The notes under the pieces were generated by a model, which was given only the letters and a program-made list of their open reading frames with translations, searched no databases and was not told the origin of the DNA. Of a stretch of 64,000 nucleotides of DNA, positions 6,491-12,555 are shown in pieces. Each line of letters opens with the position of its first letter. Position 1 is the first letter of the stretch. This DNA comes from Desmonostoc geniculatum HA4340-LM1 (GTDB taxonomy: Bacteria; Cyanobacteriota; Cyanobacteriia; Cyanobacteriales; Nostocaceae), in the NCBI GenBank assembly GCA_019359545.1, contig JAHHHB010000010.1, positions 62,001 through 126,000 on the forward strand, given 5' to 3'. Both the position numbers and the translations under genes were made by a program.

Positions 6491-6973
6491 TTATTCTTGC
6501 AATAGTAAGACTACAGCATAAGCACAAATGCCTTCTTCCCGCCCAACAGGACCTAATTTTTCATTGGTGGTAGCCTTGATGCCAATTTGATTTGGTTCTA
6601 ATTCTAAAACTGTTGCTAGTTTGTCGCGCATCTTGTGAATATGGGGTTTTAATTTTGGACGTTCTGCCACTACCACCGAGTCAATATTTCCCACCTGCCA
6701 ACCTTGCTCCCGAATTAGTTGATGTACTTGAGTTAATAGTATTAAACTATCTGCTCCCGCCCATTGGGGATCGCTAGGGGGAAAATAATGACCAATATCC
6801 CCCAAAGATAATGCCCCAAGCATGGCATCCATAATGGCATGGGTAAGTACATCAGCGTCACTGTGACCCAACAAACCGAGTTCATGGGGAATTTGAATTC
6901 CTCCTAAAATTAAAGCGCGATCGCTCACCAGTCGGTGAATATCGTAGCCGTTACCAATACGAATTTTAGTCAT
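6491..6973 (-). CDS. ispF: 2-C-methyl-D-erythritol 2,4-cyclodiphosphate synthase
   Basis: Converts CDP-ME 2-phosphate to the cyclic diphosphate in the MEP isoprenoid pathway, with release of CMP. The 160-residue length is standard. The metal-binding GNGYDIHRL (Asp10, His12) is at the N-terminus, [17 protein letters not shown] follows, and the C-terminal [17 protein letters not shown] matches the family signature. It functions as a trimer. It sits upstream of trmD on the same strand, but more than 150 bases of heptamer repeat separate the two. Confidence 0.97.
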
Positions 6974-7150
6974 TTGTCATTTGTCATTTGTCATTTGTCA
7001 TTGGGCATTGGGCATTGGGCATTGGGCATTGGGCATTGGGCATTGGGTATTGGGCATTGGGCATTGGGCATTGGTTATTCTCCCCCTGCTGCCCCTGCTC
7101 CCCATGCTCCCCATGCCCTATGCCCTATGCCCCATGCCCCTTCCCCTCCT
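6974..7150. repeat. heptamer repeat tracts (ATTTGTC, GGGCATT) and polypyrimidine tract
   Basis: Four copies of ATTTGTC run into about ten copies of GGGCATT (roughly 7003-7075), then a CCCCTGCTCCCC/CCCATGCCCTATG tract that enters the trmD 3' end. The frames open across it are repeat translations, not genes. Confidence 0.85.
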
Positions 7151-7826
7151 CCCATTTTTCCAGGAGATCGGGACGGCGATCGCGTGTTTTTTGAATTTGT
7201 TGTTCGTAACGCCAGCGTGCAATAGCAGCATGATTCCCAGACAGCAATACCTCCGGCACTTTCAAGCCCCGAAAATTTGCTGGGCGAGTATATTGGGGAT
7301 AGTCCAATAACCCCTCCTCAAAACTTTCCGCTGTCAAGGACTCCGTTTTGGCTACGGTTCCTGGTAAAAGGCGCACTACACCGTTAATTAAAGCCATTGC
7401 TGGAATTTCACCACCAGTCAGAATAAAATCTCCTAAAGATACCTCACGAGTCACCAAATGCAGTACCCTGTCATCTACTCCTTCGTAATGCCCGCAAATC
7501 AGTACTAACTGATCGTAATTTGTTGCTAATTCTCGCAACAAAGGTTGATTAATTGTTTGACCCTGTGGACTCATTAAAATAACTTCTCTTCGAGGTAGAA
7601 TCGGCAGCGACTCCACAGCACTGAAGATTGGTTCTGGCTTCATTAGCATCCCTACGCCGCCACCGTAAGGTTCATCATCGACCTTACGGTGCTTGTCAGT
7701 TGTAAAGTCCCGCGGATTAATCAGATGCACTTGGGCAATCTGTTTGGCTAAGGCTTTACCCAGCAACCCAGAGTTGAGAACGGAGTGAAAACAGTCAGGA
7801 AAAAGTGTAACTATATCAAAACGCAC
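7125..7826 (-). CDS. trmD: tRNA (guanine-N1-)-methyltransferase
   Basis: Methylates N1 of G37 in tRNAs reading CNN codons, using S-adenosylmethionine, and so prevents +1 frameshifting. It is a SPOUT-class protein with a trefoil knot. The knot motifs [12 protein letters not shown] and [15 protein letters not shown] are visible at about residues 110-140, and the C-terminal domain has the usual [16 protein letters not shown] pattern. The last few residues (GKGHGA) and the stop codon come from the adjoining repeat tract, so the 3' end is repeat-modified without touching the conserved domain. Confidence 0.97.
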
Positions 7827-7922
7827 AGTAATTCGTATTCAAGGACACTAATCTTAAATTTGAATATCTAGCAAACACAAGAAGCCAATGTTGGGTCAAA
7901 CTACAGTTAAACTTTATCAATA

Positions 7923-7936
7923 GTATCTAAAAGTAC
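7923..7936 (+). promoter_or_regulatory. NtcA-type box GTAN8TAC upstream of cphB
   Basis: GTA (7923-7925), 8 bases, TAC (7934-7936) fits the NtcA consensus exactly. NtcA is the global nitrogen regulator of cyanobacteria and is reported to act on the cphBA1 operon of Anabaena. No convincing TAN3T -10 element lies at the usual distance, so the exact promoter is uncertain. It is 620 bases before the cphB start. Confidence 0.45.
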
Positions 7937-7950
7937 CAGGAGTCTTGGAT

Positions 7951-7976
7951 TTTAGATGGGATCTAAAGTTTTTCTA
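7951..7976 (+). other. small hairpin TTTAGAT-GGG-ATCTAAA
   Basis: A 7-bp perfect inverted repeat followed by GTTTTTC. It may be a weak terminator or early leader hairpin just after the NtcA box. Confidence 0.3.
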
Positions 7977-8085
7977 ATTACTTAATTTATGTTTAAATGT
8001 TGTCACAACTACATTTAAATTAATAATCATATCAAGTTAACAACTTTCAGGATGCATCGAGCCAGCCTCAGAAAAAAGCGTGGTC

Positions 8086-8355
8086 TTACCTGTTCATCCC
8101 CAATGCCAAAGGGGAAAACTGACAATTTCATGCCAGTTTATTCTCTTGACTCAAATACTAGGCAAACAAGTCGGCAGAACCGACGGCACTTGCTAACCTT
8201 TGGGAATGCTAAGGGCGGACAACTTTGCGAAAGTTCAAGGGCGCAATGTCTCTCCAAGGCACTGGCTCCAAAATGGGGGGCAACCCCACCAAAGAAGTGT
8301 CCTCCCTAGCCTACTAAGTAAGGACTATTTTGCCAGTCTGGAAGTGGACAGGTGA
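8086..8355 (+). ncRNA. candidate structured RNA in the cphB leader
   Basis: About 270 bases with unusually many nested inverted repeats. A long-range helix pairs 8086-8097 (TTACCTGTTCAT) with 8344-8355 (GTGGACAGGTGA), 12 bp including wobbles. Inside are CCCC/GGGG (8098-8101/8111-8114), AAACTG/CAGTTT (8116-8121/8134-8139), GTCGG-CAGAA-CCGAC (8170-8184), AACTTT-GCG-AAAGTT (8221-8235) and TGGGG-GGCAA-CCCCA (8274-8288). One 85-residue frame overlaps it but has no family features. It is not RNase P RNA, tmRNA or 6S RNA by the motifs I know. It may be a cphB leader element or an orphan HEARO/omega-RNA-like element; the identity is open. Confidence 0.5.
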
Positions 8356-8557
8356 AAAACAAGGCGCTAGCAGCAGAGGAAAGGCAACAAACACGTTTAA
8401 ACTGAGGTCTCGTGTGCGTTAAACAAGAATTTGGAACTGTAGACCAGGAGAATCCAAACTTCACAAAAGTGTCCTCTCAAAAGTTGCAAAGTGCAAAAAT
8501 CATGGCTGCTTCTGATCTTGTTTAAATTCACCTGAAGTTGTTGACAGGAGAAACACA

Positions 8558-9421
8558 ATGCCGGAATTAAAAGCTAAATCGCTGGAAATGAGGACACCCC
8601 AAGCAACTAAAACCGCCGTTCTAGTTATCGGAGGCGCAGAAGACAAAGTTCACGGGCGCGACATCCTAAGAACTTTTTTTGGACGTGCCGGTGCTAGTAA
8701 AGGCTATATTACAATTATTCCATCTGCCTCTCGTGAACCCGCTATCATCGGTGGTCGGTATATTCGGATTTTTGAAGAAATGGGTGCCCAGAAGGTAGAG
8801 ATTTTAGACATCCGCGAACGGGAACAGTGTGAAGCCTCCCAAATCAAAGCATCCTTAGAAGCCTGTAGTGGGGTATTTTTGACAGGAGGAGACCAACTGC
8901 GTCTCTGTGGCGTATTGGCAGATACGCCAGCGATGGAAATTATCCGGCAGCGGGTGAGGTCAGGGCAACTGACCTTAGCAGGCACCAGTGCCGGAGCGGC
9001 AGTGATGGGGCATCATATGATTGCTGGCGGCGGTAGTGGAGAGTCGCCAAATCGTTCTTTAGTGGATATGGCAACGGGTTTGGGATTTATTCCTGAAGTC
9101 ATTGTTGACCAACACTTTCATAACCGGAATCGGATAGGACGGCTGATTAGTGCGATCGCAGCTCATCCCGATCGCTTGGGTATTGGCATTGACGAAGATA
9201 CTTGTGCTGTGTTTGAACGTGATGGCTGGCTACAAGTTATGGGTAAAGGCAGTGTCACCATTGTCGATCCCACTGAGCTCACCCACACCAACGAACCTCA
9301 TGTCAGTGCTAACGAACCCCTAACGGTGCATAACTTACGTCTGCATATCCTCAGTTATGGCGATCGCTTCCACCTGTACCAGCGCACTGTATTGCCTGCT
9401 GTACACCGAATCTCCAGCTGA
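8558..9421 (+). CDS. cphB: cyanophycinase
   Basis: A serine-type exopeptidase that degrades cyanophycin (multi-L-arginyl-poly-L-aspartate) to beta-Asp-Arg dipeptides. It is 287 residues long, a peptidase S51 relative. The nucleophile elbow GTSAGAAVM with the catalytic Ser is at about residue 147, preceded by GVFLTGGDQLRL; DQHFHNRNRIGRL and GIGIDEDTCAV complete the family pattern. AGGAG (8546-8550) lies 7 bases before the ATG. The gene is followed by cphA and fits the cphBA1 arrangement of Anabaena. The long leader contains a structured-RNA candidate and an NtcA box. Confidence 0.97.
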   Translation: MPELKAKSLEMRTPQATKTAVLVIGGAEDKVHGRDILRTFFGRAGASKGYITIIPSASREPAIIGGRYIRIFEEMGAQKVEILDIREREQCEASQIKASLEACSGVFLTGGDQLRLCGVLADTPAMEIIRQRVRSGQLTLAGTSAGAAVMGHHMIAGGGSGESPNRSLVDMATGLGFIPEVIVDQHFHNRNRIGRLISAIAAHPDRLGIGIDEDTCAVFERDGWLQVMGKGSVTIVDPTELTHTNEPHVSANEPLTVHNLRLHILSYGDRFHLYQRTVLPAVHRISS

Positions 9422-9789: not shown

Positions 9790-9849
9790 AGCGGTCAATT
9801 CCAGTAAGAAACTAGAATTTTGGTTCCGAATCTCCATCTACCTATTCCC

Positions 9850-12555
9850 ATGAGAATCCTCAAGATCCAGACCTTACGCGGCCCAAACTACTGGAGCATT
9901 CGACGCCACAAGCTGATCGTCATGCGCCTCGATTTAGAAAACCTTGCCGAGACGCCCTCGAATGAAATCCCTGGCTTTTACGAAGGATTAGTTGAGGCGC
10001 TGCCAAGTCTGGAGGGTCACTATTGTTCCCCTGGCTGTCGTGGTGGTTTTCTGATGCGAGTGAGAGAAGGCACGATGATGGGCCACATCGTGGAACATGT
10101 AGCACTAGAACTCCAAGAATTAGCCGGGATGCATGTCGGCTTTGGCCGCACTCGTGAAACTGCTACCCCTGGAATTTACCAAGTAGTGATTGAGTACTTG
10201 AATGAGGAAGCAGGACGTTACGCAGGACGAGCTGCGGTGCGGCTGTGTCAGAGTATTGTAGATCGCGGCCGCTATCCCAAAGCAGAACTAGAGCAAGATA
10301 TCCAAGACCTGAAAGACTTCAGCCGTGATGCGTCCTTGGGCCCTTCTACGGAAGCGATTGTCAAAGAAGCCGAAAAAAGAGGTATTCCTTGGATGGCTCT
10401 GGAAGCCCGGTTTTTGATTCAGCTAGGCTACGGCGTCAACCAGAAGCGAATGCAGGCAACAATGACTGACAACACCAGCATTCTGGGCGTAGAACTAGCT
10501 TGCGACAAAGAAGCCACCAAACGCATCCTCGCAGCCGCTGGTGCCCCAGTACCCAGAGGCACAACGATCAACTTCTTGGACGATTTGGAAGAAGCCATTG
10601 AATACGTCGGCGGCTATCCCATTGTGATTAAGCCCCTCGATGGCAACCACGGACGCGGTATCACCATTGATATCAGAACCTGGGAAGAAGCTGAAGCTGC
10701 CTATGAAGCTGCTAGACAAGTTTCTCGCTCAATTATTGTCGAAAGATATTATGTTGGCCGCGACCACAGGGTACTGGTAGTAAATGGCAAAGTAGTGGCA
10801 GTAGCCGAACGCGTCCCAGCTCATGTTACTGGCAATGGCAGATCCACCATCGCCGAATTGATTGAAGAAACAAACCTTGACCCAAATCGCGGCGAAGGAC
10901 ACGATAACGTCCTGACCAAGATTGAACTAGACCGCACCAGCTACCAACTCCTAGAAAGACAAGGCTACACCCTAAATAGTGTGCCACCCAAAGGCACTAT
11001 TTGTTATTTGAGGGCAACGGCAAACTTGAGTACAGGTGGTAGTGCTGTAGACCGTACCGACGAAATTCACCCAGAAAACCTTTGGTTGGCACAACGGGTA
11101 GTGAAAATTATCGGTTTGGACATCGCCGGCTTAGATATCGTCACCTCAGATATTAGCCGTCCTCTGCGGGAAGTAGATGGCGTGATTGTCGAAGTTAATG
11201 CCGCCCCTGGTTTTAGGATGCACGTCGCCCCCAGCGTTGGCATTCCCCGCAACGTCGCTGGCGCAGTGATGGATATGCTGTTTCCCAACGAACAATCCAG
11301 CCAAATTCCGATTCTCAGCGTTACAGGTACTAATGGCAAAACCACTACTACTCGACTCCTAGCACATATTTATAAGCAGACTGGAAAAGTAGTAGGTTAT
11401 ACTACTACCGATGGAACTTATATCGGTGATTACTTAGTCGAATCGGGCGATAACACAGGTCCCCAAAGTGCCCACCTGATCCTGCAAGACCCCACAGTGG
11501 AAGTAGCAGTACTAGAAACGGCTCGCGGTGGGATTCTCCGCTCTGGACTGGGTTTTGAAGCTGCAAATGTGGGTGTAGTGTTAAATGTAGCCGCCGACCA
11601 CTTAGGAATAGGCGATATAGACACCATCGAGCAGTTAGCTAACCTGAAGAGCGTAGTTGCAGAAGCCGTATTTCCTGATGGCTATGCAGTGCTGAACGCC
11701 GACGATCGCCGCGTCGCCGCCATGTCAGAAAAAACTAAAGCCAACATTGCTTACTTCACCATGAATCCCGACTCGGACTTGGTGCGGAAGCACATTCAAA
11801 AGGGCGGAGTCGCAGCGGTATATGAAAATGGCTATCTGTCCATTGTCAAAGGCGATTGGACACACCGTATAGAAAGAGCAGAAAATATACCTTTAACAAT
11901 GGGCGGGCGGGCGCCATTTATGATTGCCAACGCCTTAGCGGCAAGTTTGGCAGCCTTCGTGCAAAACGTCACAATTGAACAGATTCGTGCTGGTTTGAAG
12001 ACCTTCCGGGCTTCCGTGAGTCAAACACCGGGACGGATGAATTTGTTTAATTTAGGCAGCTACCACGCTTTGGTAGACTATGCCCATAACGCGGCTAGTT
12101 ACGAAGCAGTGGGCGCTTTTGTGCGGAATTGGACGACGGGACAACGCATTGGCGTCATTGGTGGCCCTGGCGATCGCCGTGATGAAGATTTTGTCACCTT
12201 AGGCAAACTAGCAGCGCAAATTTTTGATTACATCATCGTCAAAGAAGATGATGACACCAGAGGAAGACTACGGGGATCGGCTGCACAGTTGATAATTCAA
12301 GGCATTAACGAAGTTAAGCCTGAGAGTCGCTTTGAATCAATTTTGGATGAGACACAAGCGATTAACAAAGGCTTAGACATGGCACCAGATAACAGCCTGG
12401 TGGTGATTTTACCAGAAAGCGTGAATCGGGCAATTAAATTAATTAGAGGGCGTGGTGTAGTTAAAGAAGAGACACACCAACAAAATACTGGTACAGCGAT
12501 CGTTGATTCCCAAAATGGAGTTGCACCTTCTTCTGTAGTCAATACATTGCTGTAG
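9850..12555 (+). CDS. cphA: cyanophycin synthetase
   Basis: Builds cyanophycin by ATP-dependent addition of Asp to the backbone and Arg to each side chain, without ribosomes. It is 901 residues, the usual length. The start at 9850 gives the family N-terminus MRILKIQTLRGPNYWS; an in-frame ATG-less extension to 9820 is rejected. Order: N-terminal domain, ATP-grasp domain (about 220-470, with KPLDGNHGRGI), then the Mur-ligase-like domain with P-loop VTGTNGKTTTTRLL at about residue 495 and the C-terminal Mur domain (GGPGDRRDEDF). The tail after about 875 is poorly conserved. It lies downstream of cphB with its own NtcA-type promoter. Confidence 0.98.
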   Translation: MRILKIQTLRGPNYWSIRRHKLIVMRLDLENLAETPSNEIPGFYEGLVEALPSLEGHYCSPGCRGGFLMRVREGTMMGHIVEHVALELQELAGMHVGFGRTRETATPGIYQVVIEYLNEEAGRYAGRAAVRLCQSIVDRGRYPKAELEQDIQDLKDFSRDASLGPSTEAIVKEAEKRGIPWMALEARFLIQLGYGVNQKRMQATMTDNTSILGVELACDKEATKRILAAAGAPVPRGTTINFLDDLEEAIEYVGGYPIVIKPLDGNHGRGITIDIRTWEEAEAAYEAARQVSRSIIVERYYVGRDHRVLVVNGKVVAVAERVPAHVTGNGRSTIAELIEETNLDPNRGEGHDNVLTKIELDRTSYQLLERQGYTLNSVPPKGTICYLRATANLSTGGSAVDRTDEIHPENLWLAQRVVKIIGLDIAGLDIVTSDISRPLREVDGVIVEVNAAPGFRMHVAPSVGIPRNVAGAVMDMLFPNEQSSQIPILSVTGTNGKTTTTRLLAHIYKQTGKVVGYTTTDGTYIGDYLVESGDNTGPQSAHLILQDPTVEVAVLETARGGILRSGLGFEAANVGVVLNVAADHLGIGDIDTIEQLANLKSVVAEAVFPDGYAVLNADDRRVAAMSEKTKANIAYFTMNPDSDLVRKHIQKGGVAAVYENGYLSIVKGDWTHRIERAENIPLTMGGRAPFMIANALAASLAAFVQNVTIEQIRAGLKTFRASVSQTPGRMNLFNLGSYHALVDYAHNAASYEAVGAFVRNWTTGQRIGVIGGPGDRRDEDFVTLGKLAAQIFDYIIVKEDDDTRGRLRGSAAQLIIQGINEVKPESRFESILDETQAINKGLDMAPDNSLVVILPESVNRAIKLIRGRGVVKEETHQQNTGTAIVDSQNGVAPSSVVNTLL

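Follow-up and report, generated by a model that had tools for sequence, protein, structure and literature searches.

Structured 5′ leader RNAs, whether riboswitch-like or autogenous, form a class in which a closing stem lies near the ribosome-binding site. The 5′ leader of cphB in Desmonostoc geniculatum HA4340-LM1 is likewise long, conserved and attached to one operon, and it likewise has a predicted long-range closing stem, internal hairpins and variable, insertion-prone parts. It differs from this class in that no Rfam family matches it, that no ligand or alternative fold sequestering the Shine–Dalgarno sequence was identified, and that its closing stem would bring the predicted mRNA 5′ end together with the Shine–Dalgarno sequence. 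Two other described systems bear on the same locus. HEARO RNA (RF02033) is hairpin-rich, as is the span at positions 8086–8355 inside the cphB leader, but this span has no match to the HEARO model. The other comprises the small dispersed repeats of cyanobacteria (Elhai et al. 2008, as cited in PMC3116915) and palindromes of the REP/REPIN type. An insert at 8120–8318 of the leader resembles them in consisting of short palindromic pieces that are scattered in the genomes of relatives; it is likened to these repeats as a class.

Cyanophycin is a nitrogen store of heterocyst-forming cyanobacteria. To our knowledge, discussion of its turnover has centred on NtcA and the enzymes, and a search for a leader RNA of cphB found no paper within the literature searched. 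For Anabaena sp. PCC 7120, passages of one report refer to the cphB1 promoter as NtcA-dependent and non-canonical, and the NtcA targets listed there include the cphBA1 operon (PMC3898017).

The cphB leader and its genomic neighbourhood

All positions refer to the window, by which is meant the whole 64,000-nt stretch analysed here, taken from a genome of 7.36 Mb. NCBIfam names four nearby genes: ispF (6491–6973) and trmD (7125–7826; TIGR00088) on the minus strand, and cphB, encoding cyanophycinase (8558–9421; TIGR02069, E 1.6e-100), and cphA, encoding cyanophycin synthetase (9820–12555; TIGR02068, 1250.9 bits), on the plus strand. The divergent neighbour trmD is conserved and lies beside cphB in 59 of 60 loci. 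The intergenic stretch between the two genes measures 731 bp and contains the span 8086–8355, which the initial annotation had singled out as a candidate structured RNA. On the far side of trmD, the region next to ispF (6969–7140) is occupied by tandem repeats, namely GTCATTT (4.9 copies), CATTGGG (10.9 copies), an array of CTCCCCATG, and CCCCATG (4.6 copies), the last of which overlaps the 3′ end of trmD.

The cphB leader, at about 8036–8557, is conserved across the Nostocaceae. Its 5′ region, searched as 7960–8085, has matches in 188 of 192 sampled family genomes and in 54 of 56 genera. An order-wide sample (n = 291) included 29 family genomes, and a 66-nt consensus was found in 24 of them at E ≤ 2.5e-5, with a best match outside the family at E 0.01. 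A sequence-only model of the 3′ block, built from 34 leaders, was found in 27 of these 29 genomes at E ≤ 6.9e-7 and in 8 of the 262 other genomes of the order at E ≤ 0.01 (best 6e-4). Within its own genome, this model has one significant match, which is the leader, and the next match has E 6.0. An alignment of 34 leaders also defines a conserved AGTGTCC motif, AGTGTCCTCTCAAAA (8468–8482, plus strand), which was recognised in 148 of 166 leaders and went unrecognised in the other 18. As judged by genome comparison, the element holds a conserved position in the 5′ leader of one operon, with both the trmD–cphB neighbourhood and the leader itself found family-wide. The initial annotation had seen no signature motifs of RNase P RNA, tmRNA, 6S RNA or any riboswitch it could name in the span 8086–8355. 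Scanned against Rfam 15, neither the window nor any of 15 related loci gave a match at the gathering threshold.

The leader is preceded by a conserved promoter block (7969–8035, plus strand) that begins with TTTTTCTAATTACTTAATTTATGTTTAAAT and is covered by the same widely matched query. A sequence scan places a sigma-70-like promoter, TTGTCA-16-AATAAT, at 8000–8027 on the plus strand; the region holds two promoter-like sites against a shuffle mean of 1.3, so this is a weak signal. Transcription would start near 8034–8036, just upstream of 8036. An NtcA box had been proposed upstream of the span, and the sequence concerned, GTTGTCACAACTAC (7999–8012), does read GT-N10-AC in the genus leaders displayed, but most loci from other genera have ATTGTCAC at this position. 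When the genome collection was scanned with the promoter-block pattern, 97 stretches were returned; among the 80 listed, 76 have cphB and the other four have trmD, and one stretch comes from Gloeocapsopsis, outside the family. Inside the block, 40 bp (7969–8008; TTTTTCTAATTACTTAATTTATGTTTAAAT[A/G]TTGTCACAA) are nearly invariant family-wide and are also present before cphB in Gloeocapsopsis. This degree of conservation seems higher than that of an ordinary promoter.

Predicted closing helix P1 and internal hairpins

The predicted closing helix, P1, joins the two ends of the leader. Its 5′ arm, GTTAACAACTTTCAGG (8036–8051, plus strand), is where the mRNA is predicted to begin, and its 3′ arm, CCTGAAGTTGTTGAC (8531–8545, plus strand), directly adjoins the Shine–Dalgarno sequence AGGAG (8546–8550, plus strand). 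Positions 8036–8046 pair with 8535–8545, and 8048–8051 pair with 8531–8534. The 5′ arm is unique in the window at up to two mismatches. At least 13 of the 16 letters of the 5′ arm are present in 155 of 166 leaders, as are at least 13 of the 15 letters of the 3′ arm near the ATG. This matching was done with a simple script, and some of the misses are misses of the script. They include three loci in which one base is inserted (L041, L043 and L058), moved arms and L078, as well as the divergent arms seen in the Rivularia/Richelia group (L191, L193, L203, L205 and L226, the last of which carries the arms of L193). The script also overlooked a changed 5′ arm, GTTAACAACATCCAG, in L071. In L078, a locus outside the family, P1 was not found.

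P1 is predicted in each of 100 dissimilar leaders folded (285–677 nt), a set from which 37 further genus leaders were left out before the similarity filter, together with L078, L146, L151, L071, L204, L230, L154 and L226. By partition function, the mean probability of the lower 9 bp does not fall below 0.76 in any of these 100 leaders, and the GGAG of the Shine–Dalgarno sequence has a median unpaired probability of 0.96 over the leaders that possess it. Duplex energies of the 68 distinct arm pairs, which represent 159 of the 166 leaders, range from −27.4 to −11.5 kcal/mol. When 5000 mononucleotide shuffles were made, 7 and 5 of them attained the complementarity of the two consensus arm blocks, and 33 compact leaders have a mean fold z of −2.78 with the P1 arms compared with −1.06 without them.

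The arms also persist where the leader has been rearranged. The distance from the 5′ arm to the promoter block is 90 nt in L154, 294 nt in L204 and 293 nt in L230, against a median of 27 nt elsewhere, and both arms are kept in these loci. In L146 and L151, the 3′ arm with its AGGAG is kept 184 nt upstream of the ATG, and the 156-nt modules of these two loci fold with P1. The pair thus travels as a unit, both arms persisting even at a large distance from the promoter block or the ATG.

Covariation gives no signal for P1, since shuffling the columns leaves pairing as good as that observed (216/500). The comparison used 93 distinct module rows, with 30 loci dropped, and this set leans to pairing because its rows were picked by likeness to the consensus. 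No compensatory double change occurs in the 93 rows. In the 11-bp lower part, five deviating cells keep pairing and two break it, and in the upper four pairs 20 cells are consistent and 25 are broken. The lower helix shows no covariation because it is too invariant. Cross-pairing of the P1 arms with arms of the Rivularia/Richelia type, over 159 of the 166 leaders, gave a table that was not decisive.

The internal helices were assessed with a swap test, which rests on the expectation that each half of a real hairpin pairs more strongly with its own partner than with one taken from another leader. P3 (8394–8424, plus strand) is a hairpin with ACTGAGG in its loop, and P4 (8427–8462, plus strand; GAATTTGGAAC...ATCCAAACTTC) follows it. 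For P3, the 46-nt block that begins 30 nt past the start of the P2 5′ arm (see below) gave z −5.1, with 0 of 300 permutations reaching the observed value (87 leaders). The P4 block comprises the 46 nt preceding AGTGTCC. In 67 leaders, its own pairing averaged −9.24 compared with −7.17 (sd 0.32) after swapping, a value reached by 0 of 2000 permutations, and a second test on 90 leaders gave z −9.2 (0/300). The lowest z among the 28 other blocks of the scan that covered P3 and P4 was −2.7 (1/300). At five other offsets in the 67-leader test, the observed value was reached by 5 of 500 permutations at −150 and by 92 to 428 of 500 at the other four. In an alignment of 24 leaders, 71.7% of P4 cells are paired versus 66.8% in shuffles (0/500), the covariation score was reached by 1 of 500 shuffles, and double-change counts were not above those of shuffles. 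The initial annotation had suggested RNAalifold on homologous cphB upstream regions; the program predicted no pairs on the P4 alignment, and its covariation term was about 0 on 41 insert-free leaders. P4 is seemingly missing in some genera, in which P3 lies directly upstream of AGTGTCC. The swap tests support P3 and P4 as predicted hairpins.

A tentative long-range helix, P2, would pair AGGTGAAAAACAAGG (8350–8364, plus strand), which is conserved, with TTGTTTAAATTCACC (8518–8532, plus strand), to which it is complementary in many loci. P2 is not supported, having 91 broken versus 22 consistent cells. A further helix, GGACAC/GTGTCC, may enclose P3 and P4; one compensated case, in L143, was seen by eye.

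The span 8086–8355 and its repeat insert

The initial annotation had described the span as a 12-bp helix enclosing local hairpins, with a density of pairing far above that of other intergenic DNA. The pairing of 8086–8097 with 8344–8355 on the plus strand (G–U included) and the local hairpins are present in the window sequence. The comparison with other DNA was overstated. The 270-nt span has a fold energy of −89.8 kcal/mol on the plus strand, its z relative to dinucleotide shuffles is −2.63 and 2 of 200 shuffles are as stable, and the minus strand behaves similarly (z −2.22, 9/200). When the whole window was cut into 237 tiles of 270 nt, coding tiles included, 12 tiles folded at least as stably as the span and 19 had a lower or equal z (12 mononucleotide shuffles per tile). 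A gapless 12-bp helix that may include G–U pairs and whose ends are separated by 150 nt or more was found in 10 of the 237 tiles. Shuffling 8086–8355 produced one in 2 of 300 cases; the chance occurrence of such a helix is uncommon, not extraordinary.

This helix is not conserved within the genus, as examined in 52 leaders (L071 left out). In all 43 insert-free leaders, pair 8093/8348 is broken by a C–A mismatch, so that each of them has at least one uncompensated mismatch, and pair 8089/8352 is broken in 29 of the 43. Paired cells amount to 87.0% in the nine insert-bearing leaders versus 84.5% in the 43 insert-free ones, and across both sets a double change occurs in a single cell, which belongs to the 43. 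The mean pairing probability of the helix is 0.92 in the window; it exceeds 0.5 in 3 of the 52 leaders and is 0.00 in L020–L022, close relatives that are 97% identical over the 608-base query 7950–8557. The sequence of the 3′ arm is kept, but not as a partner for 8086–8097. The uncompensated mismatches and the prediction in only 3 of 52 leaders rule out the helix as a conserved element.

Most of the hairpins in the span are accounted for by an insert, which consists of palindromic repeat pieces (for instance 8167–8192 and 8254–8269). An oriented alignment places this insert of about 200 bp at approximately 8120–8318, with no strand assigned, in 9 of the 52 genus leaders; it is absent from the other 43. 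When 7950–8557 was searched against 99 genomes, parts 1–171 and 370–608 of the query matched most of the genus nearly side by side, and the middle was matched through in nine genomes (G000, G051, G025, G005, G031, G021, G012, G013 and G042). The part 8150–8318 is matched in 16 of 39 genus genomes at E ≤ 0.001. Among the 23 places listed for it, 7 are copies within leaders, 15 are other sites in relatives and 1 is another site in the own genome, and these places bear palindromic pieces such as CAAGTCGGCAGAGCCGACGGCAGTTGCT and GGGGGAAACCCCC. A 16-nt piece of the insert has nine matches in the own genome at up to one mismatch, the leader copy counted, and its reversed control has none; for a 25-nt hairpin piece, a second copy in the own genome was not found within three mismatches. 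By sequence comparison, similar copies of the insert occur at unrelated places in related genomes, as is characteristic of small dispersed palindromic repeats, and the insert is recent and lineage-specific.

The span 8086–8355 is no discrete RNA. It is probably the middle of a cphB 5′ leader of about 520 nt that has been lengthened by the repeat insert, a reading that we hold together with that of the leader RNA set out below. The earlier proposal of a new leader element for cyanophycin degradation is partly supported: it fits the leader, which is conserved, apparently folded and matched by no Rfam family, but not for the span, whose helix is unconserved, whose hairpins come mostly from the insert, and which excludes P1, P3 and P4.

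A second repeat hairpin (GCCATTCGCC...GGCGATGGC) immediately precedes the P1 3′ arm in many loci, both within the genus and beyond it. A hairpin repeat of the form CGCCATTCGCC...GGCGATGGC is inserted at one same point before this arm in L023–L027, L049, L059 and L072–L074, among others.

A probable leader RNA of cphBA and competing explanations

Conservation, complementarity, predicted folding and the swap-test support for P3 and P4 are the basis of the following model. Upstream of cphBA in the Nostocaceae there is probably an undescribed cis-acting leader RNA, which has P1 closing onto the Shine–Dalgarno region and, in this lineage, carries the repeat insert inside. Transcription would start just upstream of 8036, and P3 and P4 would form while the RNA is being made. 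The stretch before the Shine–Dalgarno sequence, once transcribed, would pair with the 5′ end of the mRNA as P1. This helix would loop out the entire interior and hide the 5′ end in a duplex, and it would leave AGGAG unpaired right next to the helix. As likely effects we infer that the 5′ end is shielded from decay and that ribosome access is controlled at the level of translation, which would give the leader a regulatory role. If P1 acts in this way, anything that opens it, whether a small RNA, a protein or a ligand as putative partner, would be expected to alter the output of cyanophycinase. The interior of the leader would be free to vary and to accept repeats.

A broader claim, to which we give somewhat less than an even chance, is that the leader represents a new family of riboregulators specific to heterocyst-forming cyanobacteria. 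In such a family, the 5′ end of cphBA would pair across about 130–650 nt with the flank of the start site and gate the breakdown of cyanophycin, its arms remaining fixed as a repeat-invaded interior is rewritten. If true, a leader RNA shared by almost every sampled genus of the family would offer a concrete post-transcriptional control point for cyanophycin. It would also illustrate clearly how an RNA can retain its closing stem through recurrent insertion of dispersed repeats into its interior.

Both P1 arms are almost invariant, beyond the needs of pairing and with no double compensation, and the promoter block next to the 5′ arm is itself strongly conserved. These features would also be expected if the arms were conserved as DNA, either as an inverted operator pair or as promoter and ribosome-binding sequences, with a complementarity that is incidental or serves a looping regulator. 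We regard this as unlikely, given that in L204 and L230 the 5′ arm is kept although some 293 nt separate it from the promoter block, and that the 3′ arm is kept both 184 nt from the ATG (L146 and L151) and where the Shine–Dalgarno sequence has changed (L122, L149 and L153). Moreover, the within-arm spacing differs between the two copies, as bulges would, and P3 and P4 behave as RNA hairpins. A leader that is conserved, apparently folded and endowed with a conserved motif, AGTGTCCTCTC, could instead be processed into, or terminated as, a stable trans-acting small RNA. This seems improbable: a simple scan of the plus strand inside the leader found no terminator-like site, the leader continues into the Shine–Dalgarno sequence in most loci displayed, and it is linked to cphB, with one significant match in its own genome.

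Two further explanations are more improbable still. Arginine is a component of cyanophycin, and the window has an 85-aa frame (MHRASLRKKR...) that begins with the ATG at 8052, which raises the idea of an Arg-rich leader peptide that controls the operon via attenuation. We give this very little credence; in the leader alignment the frame is broken by one-base gaps in the A run (L068, L072 and L077) and its ATG is lost in L071, on which grounds the upstream ORF was rejected, and no spaced Shine–Dalgarno sequence precedes 8052 in the window. The initial annotation had also considered an orphan HEARO or omega-RNA element without its gene, a reading suggested by nothing other than the dense hairpins. 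It is highly improbable, as the insert resembles dispersed palindromic repeats, and cmscan with all Rfam families found no match to RF02033 up to E 10 in 7830–8570 and none at the gathering threshold in the window.

Two variations at the 3′ end of the leader were observed beside the leader RNA proposed here. In L122, L130, L148, L149, L153, L155 and L157, the P1 3′ arm is largely kept and the Shine–Dalgarno sequence is replaced by TCCCTCAAGCAG before AAACACAATG. In L146 and L151, about 180 nt separate the AGGAG of the leader from cphB, and a short ORF, noted by eye, starts about 15 nt past the AGGAG.
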